Positions 5,278 to 9,424 of a DNA stretch of 53,966 bases are shown here, piece by piece. Position numbers and translations under genes: made by a program. The DNA comes from an uncultured Clostridia bacterium (GTDB taxonomy: Bacteria; Bacillota; Clostridia; Oscillospirales; Acutalibacteraceae): assembly GCA_947589415.1 (NCBI GenBank), contig CANQBP010000013.1, positions 1-53,966 on the forward strand. Reading direction: 5' to 3'. The notes beneath the pieces are model-generated. The model did no database searches, had not been told where the DNA came from, and worked only from the letters and a program-made list of their open reading frames with translations. Position 1 is the first letter of the stretch. Every line of letters begins with the position of its first letter.

Positions 5278-5793
5278 TTATAACATAACTGCGGCAGCCA
5301 TTGCCCCGCAAAATGTTCCTACCACACGATACAGCCTTTTTTTAGTATTGCTTTCCGGCTGCAGTTCGGAAAGTCTTTGCTCTGCCATAGATTTGTGCAG
5401 CCTTATCTTTCCTATCTCTTCATCAGCCCCCAAAGAACCAAATCCCTCGGAAAATGAACATATCATGTTTAGATCGCTTTCACGTATCAGTTTTTTTGAA
5501 CAAAACTCCTCTGCCGCACAACACCATGCCGCTGTAAAATCACTTCCCGCCTCCATTTGTTCAAGACAAGAGGATATCATCGGACACATAAGGGGTATCG
5601 AATTGATACTCTTTAATATTTCTATTATATCGGCATTACAGTAACTTATCATCGTTTCCGCTTGTGTCAGAAAGATAATATACTGCTTTATGAAATCCGT
5701 CTGACGTTCTATCCTCTTTGCTGCATAAAGTCCGCCTAACGCACCGCAAAATATAAGTATAATCCCGCCTGTTATCTTTAATCCTGTCATCAT
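5278..5793 (-). CDS. spoIIIAB: Stage III sporulation protein AB
   Basis: SpoIIIAB is a membrane-anchored mother-cell protein of the SpoIIIA complex; its cytoplasmic part resembles a type II secretion GspF-like domain. The product has about 171 residues: an N-terminal hydrophobic helix (LKITGGIILIFCGALGGLYAA), a helical soluble domain, and a hydrophobic tail. Two adjacent ATGs (5793 and 5790) overlap the spoIIIAA stop as ATGATGA behind GGGGAAGGA. The second ATG has better spacing. The frame running back to 5832 lies inside spoIIIAA and was rejected. Confidence 0.9.
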   Translation of the reverse strand: MMTGLKITGGIILIFCGALGGLYAAKRIERQTDFIKQYIIFLTQAETMISYCNADIIEILKSINSIPLMCPMISSCLEQMEAGSDFTAAWCCAAEEFCSKKLIRESDLNMICSFSEGFGSLGADEEIGKIRLHKSMAEQRLSELQPESNTKKRLYRVVGTFCGAMAAAVML

Positions 5794-6737
5794 TCCTTCC
5801 CCGCTTCCGATATATTTATTACTTTTGAACATACCCCCGGTTTATCTGACGAACCGAGAAATATCAATCTGTTAAACGCTCCTGTTTCAAGGAGTTTACG
5901 TGCCTGTTTCCTTTGCATAAGCGAATTATAATCCTGCGCATGAATAGTTGCTATTATATAAGCACCGGCATTTGCGCCCTGAGCTATTGCTTGGGCATCT
6001 TCCTGCGTACCCACCTCATCGCATATTATAACCTGCGGAGAAAGTGAACGGATTGCCTGCATTATGCCCTCATTTTTCGGATATCCCCTCATAACATCGC
6101 AAAGACCAAGGTCGATATTACCATCATCACGATATCCTCCGGAAAGTTCTCCCCTTTCATCTATAACACAAGTTCTCATAATCTTAATTCCGTTACCTTG
6201 TGAAAGTCTGAACGCTATATCACGCAAAATTGTCGTCTTTCCCGTTGACGGCGCTCCCACTATCAATACGCCACCGCATAACGGCGATATATAAGGCATA
6301 ATTTCTTGAGCTGCACCCGGTATCTGCCTTGCTATTCTGACATTAAGTGACGTTATATCCGTAACTGTGGTTATTTCTCCGTTTTTGACTTCTGCCGTAC
6401 CGCAAAGACCTATTCTGTGTCCGCCTCTTACGGTTATATAGCCGTTCTTAATTTCGCTCTGACGGCTGTATATCGAATATGAGCAAAGCTGCTTAAAAGT
6501 ATCAAAAATATGCCTCTGTGTGCATATAAAACCCCGTTCCGGCGTATAAACTATTTCTCCGTCCCTGCATACGAAAAGAGTATCTGTCCCATCACTCAAC
6601 GCCACGGGCTTTCCGGAACGCAGTCTTATTTCCTGTATGGTTTCTTTTCTTACATCAGACACCTTCATCAATACTAAAGACAATTCACCGCACAGCATTT
6701 GTACAGCCAAATCAAAACATTCTGTTTTATTTTTCAT
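5790..6737 (-). CDS. spoIIIAA: Stage III sporulation protein AA, secretion-type ATPase
   Basis: SpoIIIAA is the ATPase that energises the SpoIIIA complex and resembles type II/IV secretion ATPases. The 315-residue product has an N-terminal domain with the family stretch EIRLRSGKPV, then a RecA-like core. The core has Walker A GAPSTGKTT near residue 160, a VIDERGEL loop, and Walker B-like QVIICDEVG. Late motifs are GANAGAYIIATIHA. AGGGAG precedes the ATG. It is the first gene of the operon. I could not pick out a convincing sigma-E promoter in the short upstream region, although sigma-E control is what is known for the family. Confidence 0.96.
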   Translation of the reverse strand: MKNKTECFDLAVQMLCGELSLVLMKVSDVRKETIQEIRLRSGKPVALSDGTDTLFVCRDGEIVYTPERGFICTQRHIFDTFKQLCSYSIYSRQSEIKNGYITVRGGHRIGLCGTAEVKNGEITTVTDITSLNVRIARQIPGAAQEIMPYISPLCGGVLIVGAPSTGKTTILRDIAFRLSQGNGIKIMRTCVIDERGELSGGYRDDGNIDLGLCDVMRGYPKNEGIMQAIRSLSPQVIICDEVGTQEDAQAIAQGANAGAYIIATIHAQDYNSLMQRKQARKLLETGAFNRLIFLGSSDKPGVCSKVINISEAGKE

Positions 6738-6837
6738 TTCTTATTCTCCCTGCTGTTAGTCGTTCGTTCTGATATTAAATCTATATTTAACAGGCAAGGA
6801 TTTTATTCCCGATAAAGATTGAATATATAAATATAAC

Positions 6838-6876
6838 AAAAAGTTCGGACAACTCTTTTAGTCGTCCGAACTTTTT
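6838..6876 (-). terminator. Bidirectional intrinsic terminator after the 46-aa gene
   Basis: GTTCGGACAACT pairs with AGTCGTCCGAAC around a CTTTT loop and is flanked by A5 and T5. It can act on either strand. On the minus strand it separates the 46-aa gene from the spoIIIA operon. Confidence 0.85.
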
Positions 6877-6898
6877 AAAACTGATTTTCCTTAATTTT

Positions 6899-7039
6899 TT
6901 ACTGTTTGCCTTTTCTGTCGAAAGCCTTTCCGACAATTTTTCCCGCACTGTCATCTGCACTTGATGCGGCACACAATAGAGCCATACAAACTACGCCGAG
7001 TACAGTACCTGCTATCATTCCAACAAAAAATCCTGCCAT
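6899..7039 (-). CDS. 46-residue membrane miniprotein (DUF3789-like)
   Basis: ATG at 7039 is preceded by GAGGGGTG with good spacing. The 46 codons give MAGFFVGMIAGTVLGVVCMA..., a single membrane helix (about 3-24) followed by a short polar tail ending DRKGKQ. Size, the N-terminal pattern and the -SAD- after the helix resemble the small DUF3789 family seen in Clostridia and their phages; this family call is from memory. It lies directly downstream of the 188-nt RNA candidate and ends at a strong terminator. The function is unknown. Confidence 0.75.
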   Translation of the reverse strand: MAGFFVGMIAGTVLGVVCMALLCAASSADDSAGKIVGKAFDRKGKQ

Positions 7040-7122
7040 TTTTTGCACCCCTCGTTTTTCAAATTGGGTATATATTTATATATATGCAAAAAATATAAGC
7101 ATTATTCATTCTCGGTCAGTAC

Positions 7123-7310
7123 AAAAAAGCGACTCAACTAAGAGCCGCTTTTTCTATCGTAATTTTCTTTCAGCTAAAGCCTATGCAAGTCTGGTTTATT
7201 ACGAACCACTTATAGCTCTATGTATGGTCTGCCTTGCCCGAGCATACACTTCAACACTAGGCGTCCTCATTATCCCTTGAGCGACTACCGGCAAATGAAA
7301 CTCATTCACT
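7123..7310 (-). ncRNA. Structured non-coding RNA candidate, distal copy (about 188 nt)
   Basis: No good ORF with a ribosome site covers this stretch. A sigma-A promoter lies just upstream (7317-7345), and the RNA would end at a strong hairpin (AAAAAGCGGCTC / GAGTCGCTTTTTT). Internal helices can be drawn: TGTATG/CATACA, TGGTT/AACCA, GTCgCTCA/TGAGGAC and GCCTA/TAGGC. The GTTGAAGT...GCTCGG stretch recurs in the neighbouring RNA. Length would suit 6S RNA, but the ends do not pair in the rod shape expected. The family is not assigned. Confidence 0.65.
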
Positions 7311-7316
7311 GTTCAT

Positions 7317-7345
7317 ATTATATGTTATAATCCCAAAAAAATCAA
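7317..7345 (-). promoter_or_regulatory. Sigma-A promoter of the distal RNA candidate
   Basis: On the minus strand, TTGATT (7340-7345), a 17-bp spacer, then TATAAT (7317-7322). The start site is expected near 7310. The -35 region and upstream flank are nearly identical over about 24 bp to the promoter at 7625-7652. Confidence 0.8.
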
Positions 7346-7376
7346 GCCTTTTTCAAAATTATTTAATATGTACAAT

Positions 7377-7618
7377 AAAAAAACCTGCTCCCATAATTTG
7401 GCTGCAGGACTTTTTAACTTACATTTTGTAGGCGGAGGACGTACCAATCCTCAAGTTGATCTCGATTGTGTCCGAGCCTACTCTCTTTCACAACTTCAAC
7501 AATCTGTACGAAAACGCTACGACTGTTAAGTTTCGTCGCTCCGTCAATAGCACCAGGCTATCTGATCAAATAAGACTCGTTTAATTTACGGTACAATAAA
7601 TATAAAGTCCTACCCGCT
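7377..7618 (-). ncRNA. Structured non-coding RNA candidate, proximal copy (about 242 nt)
   Basis: Transcription from the promoter at 7625-7652 would run to a hairpin CCTGC..GCAGG followed by TTTTTTT (A tract 7377-7383). No convincing ORF is present. The 5' AGGACTTT can pair with 3' AAAGTCCT, closing the whole molecule. Inner helices include GTAGGC/GCCTAC, CTCG/CGAG, GAGGA/TCCTC and ACGAAAC/GTTTTCGT. The closing helix competes partly with the terminator stem. It shares a GTTGAAGT...GCTCGG element with the distal RNA. The family is not assigned; 6S-like or another clostridial structured RNA are options. Confidence 0.65.
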
Positions 7619-7624
7619 GTTGAT

Positions 7625-7652
7625 ATTATAATGCTATAATCAAAAAAATCAA
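7625..7652 (-). promoter_or_regulatory. Sigma-A promoter of the proximal RNA candidate
   Basis: TTGATT (7647-7652), 16-bp spacer, TATAAT (7625-7630) on the minus strand. It is almost the same promoter as at 7317-7345, including the flanking AAAAAGGC just upstream of -35. Confidence 0.78.
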
Positions 7653-7702
7653 GCCTTTTTCAAAAATTTGTAAAATTATTTTATATGTTCCCGTTTTTCC
7701 TA

Positions 7703-8116
7703 TCATTCATATTCTGATCTGTCTGCCTGGCCGAATATATCAACGGGTACACCGAGCAGACTCATTATTTCCACATAACCGTCATATACTTCATCTCGTG
7801 AAAAACCGCCCGCTTCAAGTTCATCATCACTAAGACGGTTAAGTCTGCGGTAAAAATCCGATGAGAGTTCAATATATTTATCCGAATATTCCATATTGTC
7901 AAAAAGAATATCCTCCGCCTGACCTATTTTGCCCTCATTAACAAGCGAACACAATTCTAAATATATTTTGTCTGTTGAAGCTAACGAATCCGTGTCCTCA
8001 ATATTTCCGATTATTTCATATTTTATTTCTTCCTCATTTTTCCCGAATACGACATTTGCAATAAACCTTGTCATCATTTCAATTTGCCGCATCATCCAAT
8101 CATCTTGAAATCCCAT
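7703..8116 (-). CDS. DUF6483-like hypothetical protein
   Basis: A 137-residue acidic, soluble protein beginning MGFQDDWMMRQIEMMTRFIANVVFGKNEEE. This start is typical of DUF6483 proteins of Clostridia, as I recall the family. The remainder is helical, with TPR-like spacing (LCSLVNEGKIGQAEDILFDN) near residues 55-80. No catalytic motif is visible and its role is unknown. It is transcribed with the flavoprotein upstream, about 80 bp away, and ends just before the promoter of the proximal RNA. Confidence 0.75.
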   Translation of the reverse strand: MGFQDDWMMRQIEMMTRFIANVVFGKNEEEIKYEIIGNIEDTDSLASTDKIYLELCSLVNEGKIGQAEDILFDNMEYSDKYIELSSDFYRRLNRLSDDELEAGGFSRDEVYDGYVEIMSLLGVPVDIFGQADRSEYE

Positions 8117-8194
8117 AATCTCCCTCCAATAGCTATACTCCGTACTTTTCCCGTAATCCCTTTTATGGCTGCTGTATTCATAATATACCGCAAT

Positions 8195-9424
8195 TTAACT
8201 TATTCCTGCAAGAATACCGGTAGAAAAAGCCGTCTGCAAATTAAACCCTCCCGTGTAGCAGTCCACGTCTATCACTTCCCCTGCAAAATACAATCCGCTG
8301 ACGAGCTTAGACTCCATAGTTTTAGGATTTATTTCTTTTGTATCCACCCCTCCGGAGGTTATAATCGCCTCCTCAATCGGTCTGAAACCCGTTACGGTTC
8401 TCGTCATGCATTTTAAAAGCCTTAGTATATACTTTCTTTCCAACTTTGTTATCTCACCGCAGCGTTTAGCTGCAGCTATCCCCGAAAGTTTAACAAAATC
8501 CTCAATAAGTGCTTTCGGCATCAGCTTTGCAAGAATATCCGCATACACTCCCGCCCCTGCCGCTGCAATCTCACGGATAAGTCTTTGATCCAATTTTTGT
8601 TCGGTCAAAGCCGGTTTCATATCTATTTCTACCCTGTATCTGCCGTTTTCCATATTTCTCATATGTGCCGAAGCACTCCTTGCCGTTGCACCGGAAAGCC
8701 CGTACCTTTTAAGCTCAATTTCCCCAAAGTCCGTATATATTATTTCATTTTTTTTCGTATCAATAACTTTTACGGCAACATTTTTAAGCAAAAGACCGTC
8801 CGCATCATAGCCGAAATGTTCTTTTGTTTCCAACGGTACAAGTGAGGGTCGAAGCGGTATTATTGTATGTCCTGCCTTTTGTGCAAAACGATAGCCGTCA
8901 CCGGTCGAACCCGTCAACGGGTAGGATTTTCCTCCCGTTGCTATTATAAGTTTGTTACACTCTCTTATACTCCCGTTTTCAAATATTACCCCTTTCACCT
9001 TTCCGTTGACCACGACTATATCCTCAGCACAATCATGTACTATCTTACAGCCCGCAATTTTCGCTCTTCTCTTTAGTGTTTCGACAATATCCGCCGCTTT
9101 ATCGGAAACCGGAAAAACACGACCCCCACGCTCGGTTTTAAGGGGGCAACCGTTTTCTTCAAAAAAATTCATCGTATCTTTCGGTGCAAAATTATTTAAA
9201 GCACTATACAGAAACTTTCCGTTGGTCGGTGTATTTTCGATAACTGTTTTCACATCGCAGTTATTTGTTACGTTACACCTGCCTTTTCCGGTTATATATA
9301 GCTTTTTTCCGATTTTGGGATTTTTTTCAATAATAACGGTTTCATGTCCGAGGTCAGCCGAAAAAATCCCCGCCATTATACCTGCGGCCCCTCCGCCGAT
9401 TATAATCGTATCAGCTGATGTCAA
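8195..9424 (-). CDS. BaiN/HI0933-family NAD(P)/FAD-dependent oxidoreductase
   Basis: A 409-residue flavoprotein of the HI0933/BaiN (YhiN) family. It has an N-terminal FAD-binding Rossmann motif (IIGGGAAGIMAG), then IEKNPKIGKKLYITGKGRCNVTN, ATGGKSYPLTGSTGDGY near 165-185, and a C-terminal FAGEVIDVDCYTGGFNLQ. BaiN from bile-acid-inducible operons has been linked to bile-acid double-bond reduction, but most family members have no known substrate and none is inferred here. The start is TTG at 9424 with GGGGAGG eight bases upstream, overlapping the stop of the RpiR gene as TTGA. The two are co-transcribed. Confidence 0.92.
   Translation of the reverse strand: MTSADTIIIGGGAAGIMAGIFSADLGHETVIIEKNPKIGKKLYITGKGRCNVTNNCDVKTVIENTPTNGKFLYSALNNFAPKDTMNFFEENGCPLKTERGGRVFPVSDKAADIVETLKRRAKIAGCKIVHDCAEDIVVVNGKVKGVIFENGSIRECNKLIIATGGKSYPLTGSTGDGYRFAQKAGHTIIPLRPSLVPLETKEHFGYDADGLLLKNVAVKVIDTKKNEIIYTDFGEIELKRYGLSGATARSASAHMRNMENGRYRVEIDMKPALTEQKLDQRLIREIAAAGAGVYADILAKLMPKALIEDFVKLSGIAAAKRCGEITKLERKYILRLLKCMTRTVTGFRPIEEAIITSGGVDTKEINPKTMESKLVSGLYFAGEVIDVDCYTGGFNLQTAFSTGILAGIS

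Follow-up and report, generated by a model that had tools for sequence, protein, structure and literature searches.

In type III toxin–antitoxin systems such as ToxIN, CptIN and TenpIN, whose defining features we take from the available part of PMC5086642, a pseudoknotted RNA made of several 34–50-nt repeats, a terminator and the gene of a ToxN-family toxin follow one another in that order on one strand, and such loci are spread over plasmids and chromosomes. In Clostridioides difficile, according to the portion of PMC12373285 available, the non-coding RNA (ncRNA) RCd22, with two abiF motifs, lies before the gene of the toxic protein AbiF, which has a HEPN-type RNase motif, and neutralises it by direct binding. 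Here we examine two tandem RNA genes, A and B, on the minus strand of a 53,966-nt stretch of DNA from an uncultured Clostridia bacterium (contig CANQBP010000013.1, assembly GCA_947589415.1; the whole stretch is called the window). RNA B is a drum RNA and RNA A appears to be a divergent one, and drum RNAs probably bind and neutralise PBECR4 nucleases as RNA antitoxins, a reading drawn from how often relatives of the pair sit just before a nuclease-toxin gene.

Little has been written about either partner. Drum appears in PMC7657543, PMC11974997 and PMC7779021 as a structure or an Rfam listing, with no function given in the available portions of these papers, and its kink-turn had previously been listed (PMC11974997, likewise in part). 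Our literature search found no paper naming PBECR4 and no link between drum and a toxin; the original drum description lay outside its reach, so a remark on neighbouring genes may stand there.

Between a DUF6483 gene (8116–7703) and an open reading frame (ORF) of 46 amino acids (aa) resembling DUF3789 (7039–6899), the minus strand holds two complete transcription units. Besides Rfam, we used two drum models of our own: R1, which is genus-inclusive, with a training set that takes in genus sequences and RNA B itself, and R2, which is genus-free. Genomes, contigs and loci carry our handles G, C and L. The units comprise the following parts:

7377–7617, minus strand: RNA A, about 241 nt from promoter to terminator, very probably a divergent drum-family RNA (fold, R1 model, alignments)
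7123–7310, minus strand: RNA B, about 188 nt from promoter to terminator, a drum RNA (Rfam RF02958, fold)
7643–7666, minus strand: promoter A, −35 region with conserved upstream flank TTTTTGAAAAAGGCTTGATTTTTT, the same 24 bp as in promoter B (promoter scan)
7336–7353, minus strand: promoter B, conserved 18-mer AAAAAGGCTTGATTTTTT (promoter scan and exact search of the assembly)
7377–7410, minus strand: terminator hairpin of RNA A (predicted fold; coordinates from alignment)
7123–7153, minus strand: terminator hairpin of RNA B (predicted fold; coordinates from alignment)
7155–7259, minus strand: drum core of RNA B, with kink-turn AGU-GUU-GA..GA-GCU and pseudoknot (Rfam, structural descriptor, alignment)

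A first-pass annotation, made from the letters alone, had described two tandem structured RNAs at these coordinates, and folding against dinucleotide shuffles bears it out: z is −2.94 for RNA A (7617–7375) and −3.22 for RNA B (7310–7123), with 1 of 200 shuffles equally good in each case. It had also given each RNA a promoter and a terminator. Promoter A reads TTGATT/16/TATAAT at 7652–7625(−) (−35 at 7652–7647, −10 at 7630–7625) and promoter B TTGATT/17/TATAAT at 7345–7317(−) (−35 at 7345–7340, −10 at 7322–7317); both score 10/12 and are among the top three of 17 promoter-like sites in 6000–9000 (shuffle mean 8.1), and the alignment confirms the reported duplication, the −35 regions and upstream flanks being identical over 24 bp. 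Both RNAs finish with a hairpin and a U-run in the predicted folds, whereas a simple terminator scan listed neither terminator, perhaps because U-runs were counted within stems. As the annotation had held, no plausible ORF is present, none of at least 50 aa lying on the minus strand within either RNA. The two sequence elements it had seen in both RNAs fare differently: GUUGAAG is the kink-turn strand of both, whereas GCUCGG occupies non-homologous places, before the pseudoknot strand in RNA B but overlapping and after it in RNA A, and is probably a coincidence.

RNA B is a standard drum. Rfam places RF02958 at 7155–7259 with 52.8 bits (gathering score 43) over model positions 1–112 of 112; the pseudoknot joins GCAAG (7237–7233) to CUUGC (7189–7185), and the family's kink-turn, pseudoknot, P4 hairpin, GAAAGAAAA tail and P5 are all there. 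The pair had been regarded as RNAs without a name, which no longer applies to RNA B and still applies to RNA A in the sense that Rfam has no match for it, though it aligns with drum. Across the whole window no Rfam family other than drum reached its gathering score, and this includes 6S and raiA, which had been put forward for checking; PK-HAV, STnc230, Thr_leader and other sub-threshold matches were judged to be chance.

The helices and the pseudoknot of drum covary. In the R1 alignment of 66 drums (63 distinct) from 65 chosen loci, 94.1% of the cells of P1, P2, P5 and the loop-to-3′ pseudoknot are paired. Two-sided changes number 284, whereas shuffles give 71 and slid controls no more than 65. 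All five pseudoknot pairs show two-sided changes and 89.5% of their cells are paired, in an alignment that was fitted to P1, P2 and P5 and not to the pseudoknot, whose columns were chosen from that same alignment.

The commonest genomic partner of the drum family is a nuclease-toxin gene, so an RNA antitoxin is likelier than 6S- or raiA-like regulation and the 'abundant regulatory RNAs' first proposed are not the best reading. The partner gene codes for PBECR4 (PF18813), a domain that Pfam names phage-Barnase-EndoU-ColicinE5/D-RelE-like nuclease 4. Searched with Pfam, four drum-linked proteins gave PBECR4 for L004 (61.4 bits), L005 (99.7 bits) and, below the cut-off, L006 (25.8 bits), and no match for L011. 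The PBECR4-like protein of G075 has no Pfam match itself; within a set of four proteins, blastp relates it to those of L005 (E 3e-12) and L004 (E 5e-12), and a G002 fragment 92% identical to it matches PBECR4 at E 1.6e-5 (25.8 bits, cut-off 27). With a profile built from the Pfam-found PBECR4 proteins of the genome sample, the same-strand downstream ORF matches at 17 of 32 drum places, including two truncated genes (L083, L090) and one cut by a contig end (L006). At the remaining 15 places, 12 have no PBECR4 match downstream, two end too soon (L082, L095) and L084 holds a short start fragment (by eye). A 146-aa ORF after drum 2 of G024 was considered as a partner and set aside, its only Pfam row being weak and unrelated.

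This association goes well beyond what co-occurrence by chance would give. Among 391 genomes drawn from the class, the window's own included (two lists that share genome handles are taken as one draw), drum is found in 20 (19 above the cut-off), PBECR4 in 28 and both in 14, where 1.4 would be expected; the nominal P of 7e-14 is no true probability, as the genomes are related. Drum and PBECR4 are adjacent in 12 of the 14. The search was also run from the toxin side, with an alignment (A1) of ten drum-linked PBECR4 proteins against 84,980 species genomes; R1 finds a drum in 75 of the best 80 of 143 relatives, a set biased to drum-type PBECR4. The drum is upstream in 74 loci, within 250 nt in 73 of these (median gap 63 nt), overlaps the start of the protein match at L207, and all 81 drum matches lie on the toxin strand. 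The five loci without one comprise two at contig ends (L138, L146), one with only 277 nt before the match (L184) and two in which the toxin start looks damaged by eye (L167, L205). In a Pfam-based sample of 30 PBECR4 loci, some of whose drums served in R1 training, RF02958 finds drum in 12 (11 above the cut-off) and R1 in 17; R2 retains L114 and L120 from the five added by R1 only (L114, L115, L116, L120 and L125). Hosts of drum–PBECR4 loci include Lachnospiraceae, Oscillospiraceae, Treponema, Selenomonas and Tissierella. Eight PBECR4 proteins reached no NCBIfam cut-off, seven that were tested gave no convincing PADLOC row, and fold searches with PBECR4 gave no strong rows, which is not evidence of a new fold.

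Within these loci a terminator-like hairpin occupies 34 of the 38 drum–toxin gaps tested, the other four holding hairpins with shorter U-runs (by eye). A drum directly 5′ of a toxin gene with a terminator between them is also what one would see if drum were a cis-acting leader, its structure controlling read-through of the terminator by attenuation or sensing, without ever binding the protein. We consider this unlikely. Tandem drum copies stand before one toxin in G007 and G075 and, two each, in L155 and L181, and in L145 about 1.5 kb of inserted sequence, including two ORFs that we take to be IS3-type transposase genes, separates drum from toxin. Moreover, a leader would have no PBECR4 to regulate at orphan drums with a promoter and terminator of their own, such as those of the window and the C21 copy, the assembly's only other RF02958 match (G000:C21:1410–1531, 38.2 bits, below the cut-off). 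Other arrangements include two drum–toxin modules each at L187 and L189 and, at L156, a toxin followed by two additional drums in a locus that has no second PBECR4 match.

In many loci, then, drum opens a two-gene module consisting of promoter, drum RNA, terminator and PBECR4-domain nuclease. If drum is an antitoxin, the kink-turned, pseudoknotted RNA would be made in excess, since the terminator would halt most transcripts, and would bind and mask the nuclease. Loss of a short-lived drum RNA, whether through transcription shut-off by a phage or through loss of a mobile element, could then free the nuclease.

How does such a module compare with the systems described at the outset? Drum–PBECR4 is like ToxIN, CptIN and TenpIN in the order of RNA gene, terminator and toxin gene on one strand, in its pseudoknotted RNA, in its spread over plasmids and chromosomes, and, for a ToxIN-like locus in this genus, in having the same promoter and a common toxin tail. 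It differs in its toxin, which is PBECR4 and not ToxN, and in that usually one drum of about 110 nt takes the place of several short repeats. Two findings count against type III membership: most loci have one drum copy and no tandem repeats, and Pfam names PBECR4, not ToxN, for three of the drum-linked proteins above and returns nothing for the fourth. For these reasons we describe drum–PBECR4 as type III-like without counting it among type III systems. With AbiF and RCd22 it shares an ncRNA placed before the gene of a toxic or, for PBECR4, putatively toxic protein, whereas the HEPN-type motif of AbiF sets the two proteins apart; by analogy, AbiF with its abiF RNA is the closest tested precedent.

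The window's own genome ties the two kinds of locus together. The exact 18-mer of promoter B has four copies in the assembly, before RNA A, RNA B, the C21 drum and an array of three repeats with a ToxN gene after it (PF13958, E 1.1e-30), and this ToxN and a drum-linked PBECR4 of G024 have a common C-terminal stretch (54 columns, 68.5% identical). The exact promoter copies and the common tail suggest that a type III locus and drum–PBECR4 loci have traded promoters and toxin tails.

This ToxIN-type locus, L046 (G000:C51, 212–1191), consists of a promoter of the drum type, three repeats each about 56 nt long (by eye), a terminator and ToxN. Two further arrays were seen. At L051 (G000:C22, about 1501–1740) a similar promoter precedes tandem repeats of about 36 nt and a terminator (by eye); no ToxN-like ORF was noticed downstream, and this is possibly an orphan type III antitoxin array. 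Immediately upstream of a drum–PBECR4 module at L006 (G002:C4, about 1150–1300) stands a repeat array that resembles the one in L046 (by eye).

RNA A calls for a more cautious assignment; we regard it as very probably a divergent drum lacking P5. Its parts are:

7508–7540, minus strand: 5′ domain hairpin AGCGACGAAACTTAACAGTCGTAGCGTTTTCGT, common to drum 2 of G024 (26-bp match and alignment)
7458–7504, minus strand: core, with P1, kink-turn GUU-GA..GA, P2 and an apical loop holding the pseudoknot strand GUAGGC (7481–7476) (structural descriptor)
7422–7452, minus strand: P3 GAGG/CCUC (7452–7435) and the 3′ pseudoknot strand GCCUAC (7433–7428) (descriptor, alignment)

The pseudoknot has six Watson–Crick pairs, 7433–7428 with 7481–7476. 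A BLAST search of 64 genus genomes, the window's own among them, finds one homologue of nearly full length in another genome (G075:C419, 77% identity) and also matches 26 bp (96% identity, E 4.9e-5) of the leader of drum 2 in G024, a drum that Rfam recognises at 52.9 bits. Aligned end to end, window A, the G075 copy and G024:C112 drum 2 share the promoter, 5′ domain, kink-turn strand, P3 and pseudoknot, and the pseudoknot carries a compensated change from GUAGG/CCUAC in the two A copies to GUGGG/CCCAC in drum 2. In G075 the homologue is followed closely by a drum, to which R1 gives 67.8 bits, and then by the PBECR4-like gene. R1 scores RNA A at 18.2 bits (7425–7504; E 5e-4 in 1,201 nt) and the G075 copy at 20.8 bits (E 0.016 in 139 kb). 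A descriptor of kink-turn and pseudoknot, strict enough to find only 15 of 32 recognised drums, matches once in RNA A and in 39 of 5,000 dinucleotide shuffles; in the G075 copy it chose a 5-bp loop pairing other than GUAGG/CCUAC.

Relative to RF02958, RNA A has a longer 5′ domain, lacks the P5 helix and the GAAAGAAAA tail, its terminator following directly after P4 (alignment, by eye), and is invisible to Rfam. Neither at gathering score nor up to E 5 does Rfam give it a drum match, which counts against membership of RF02958, and we class it as drum-related and not as a member of that family. The broader drum assignment has evidence against it as well: R2 gives RNA A 9.7 bits (E 0.74 in the window), and three unrelated places in the window score higher, at 13.7–15.2 bits. 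As R2 lends no support, the identity of RNA A rests on BLAST, R1, the descriptor and the three-way alignment. Weak R2 matches in the genus (E 0.01–0.42), one of which overlaps a DUF6483 match, were treated as chance.

The site of the pair can be compared between relatives by way of its neighbours:

7703–8116, minus strand: DUF6483 gene, left neighbour of the pair (PF20092, E 6.6e-33)
6899–7039, minus strand: 46-aa DUF3789-like ORF, right neighbour (PF12664, E 0.014, below the cut-off)
5790–6737, minus strand: ORF at the start of a spoIIIA-type operon, adjoining DUF6483 in relatives (ORF list); we take it to be a spoIIIAA-like gene

DUF6483 occurs in 55 of the 64 genus genomes; the comparison uses 30 of its loci. 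Its distance to the small ORF is 666 nt in the window against 72–233 nt in the 12 relatives with both located, and in the three closest relatives the small ORF lies 80–93 nt from the DUF6483 match; the two RNA genes account for essentially all of the roughly 570 extra nt in the window. With R1, none of the 30 loci has a drum at this site except the window's own, and no PBECR4 was found in the window's assembly, which is about 96% complete. Given no room in the 12 relatives, no drum in the other loci and no PBECR4 in the assembly, the pair is most simply an acquired, toxin-less antitoxin pair, and its loss from all relatives compared is less likely than its acquisition in the window. The window locus lacks one part of a type III system, as no toxin gene lies downstream of the pair, where the next genes are the 46-aa ORF and the spoIIIAA-like gene. 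Elsewhere in the window, 40–1479 hold an ORF of repeated CxxC zinc-ribbon-like units (TCPKCGKVMPKYVGTCGCGEPQPF).

A chromosomal site beside sporulation-type genes, together with strong independent promoters and terminators, might suggest that A and B are trans-acting small RNAs (sRNAs) for housekeeping genes and that the nuclease link is incidental. We think this very unlikely, since PBECR4 adjacency recurs in Lachnospiraceae, Oscillospiraceae, Treponema, Selenomonas and plasmids, far above chance, and none of the relatives compared carries the pair at this site. That the pair is inert debris of a drum–PBECR4 module whose toxin was lost is a real, if tentative, possibility, and one compatible with an antitoxin role for the family. 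The assembly has no toxin, the pair occupies this site in one genome only, and truncated toxins lie beside drums elsewhere (L083 and L090, with the L084 start fragment seen by eye). Yet both promoters, kink-turns, pseudoknots and terminators are intact, and the window and G075 copies of RNA A, although only 77% identical, retain P2, P3 and the pseudoknot for the most part; a few changes there are two-sided (by eye), and one P1 pair and one P4 pair are lost. If drum RNAs are antitoxins, the window pair may be either a toxin-less remnant or a chromosomal protector acting in trans against incoming drum–PBECR4 elements.

PBECR4 genes are not confined to drum loci or to chromosomes. Clear two-copy repeats with a period of 33–65 nt precede PBECR4 in 5 of 10 non-drum loci (L103, L105, L108, L109 and L118) and make candidates for further antitoxin RNA families; repeats at L098 and L117 were rejected, since a chance repeat in a control drum locus (L101) scores as well or nearly so. 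No two-copy repeats stand upstream at L104, L119 and L121. Relatives of one PBECR4 protein occur on 20 of 72,556 plasmids, 19 from Enterococcus and one from Streptococcus suis, and the three plasmid loci read all have a drum-like RNA in front (44–58 bits with R2). On the Enterococcus faecalis plasmid locus L210 (2989–4986), a drum-like RNA and PBECR4 are followed by an AbiH-family gene. Phage records hold no relative of this one query protein; one viral contig has a PBECR4 relative with a drum-like match before it (36.4 bits with R2). Near-identical orphan drums with flanks alike on both sides (by eye) occur at four places in one genome (L091–L094, G305) and at L089 (G101), as if those of G305 were carried by a dispersed element. 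It is rather doubtful, though conceivable, that PBECR4 nucleases make up a large group of RNA-neutralised toxins that has gone unrecognised, served by several antitoxin RNA scaffolds of separate kinds (drum, two-copy repeats and others), and that orphan drum pairs such as this one are kept as immunity in trans to mobile elements bearing the same module.

Drum is listed in Rfam as an sRNA, and its position before a nuclease gene makes its function directly testable. If the antitoxin reading is true, RNA-antitoxin systems would take in a new family of toxins, one present in gut Clostridia, in Treponema and on enterococcal plasmids, and toxin-less drum copies such as the window pair would gain a meaning, as remnants or as anti-addiction protectors.
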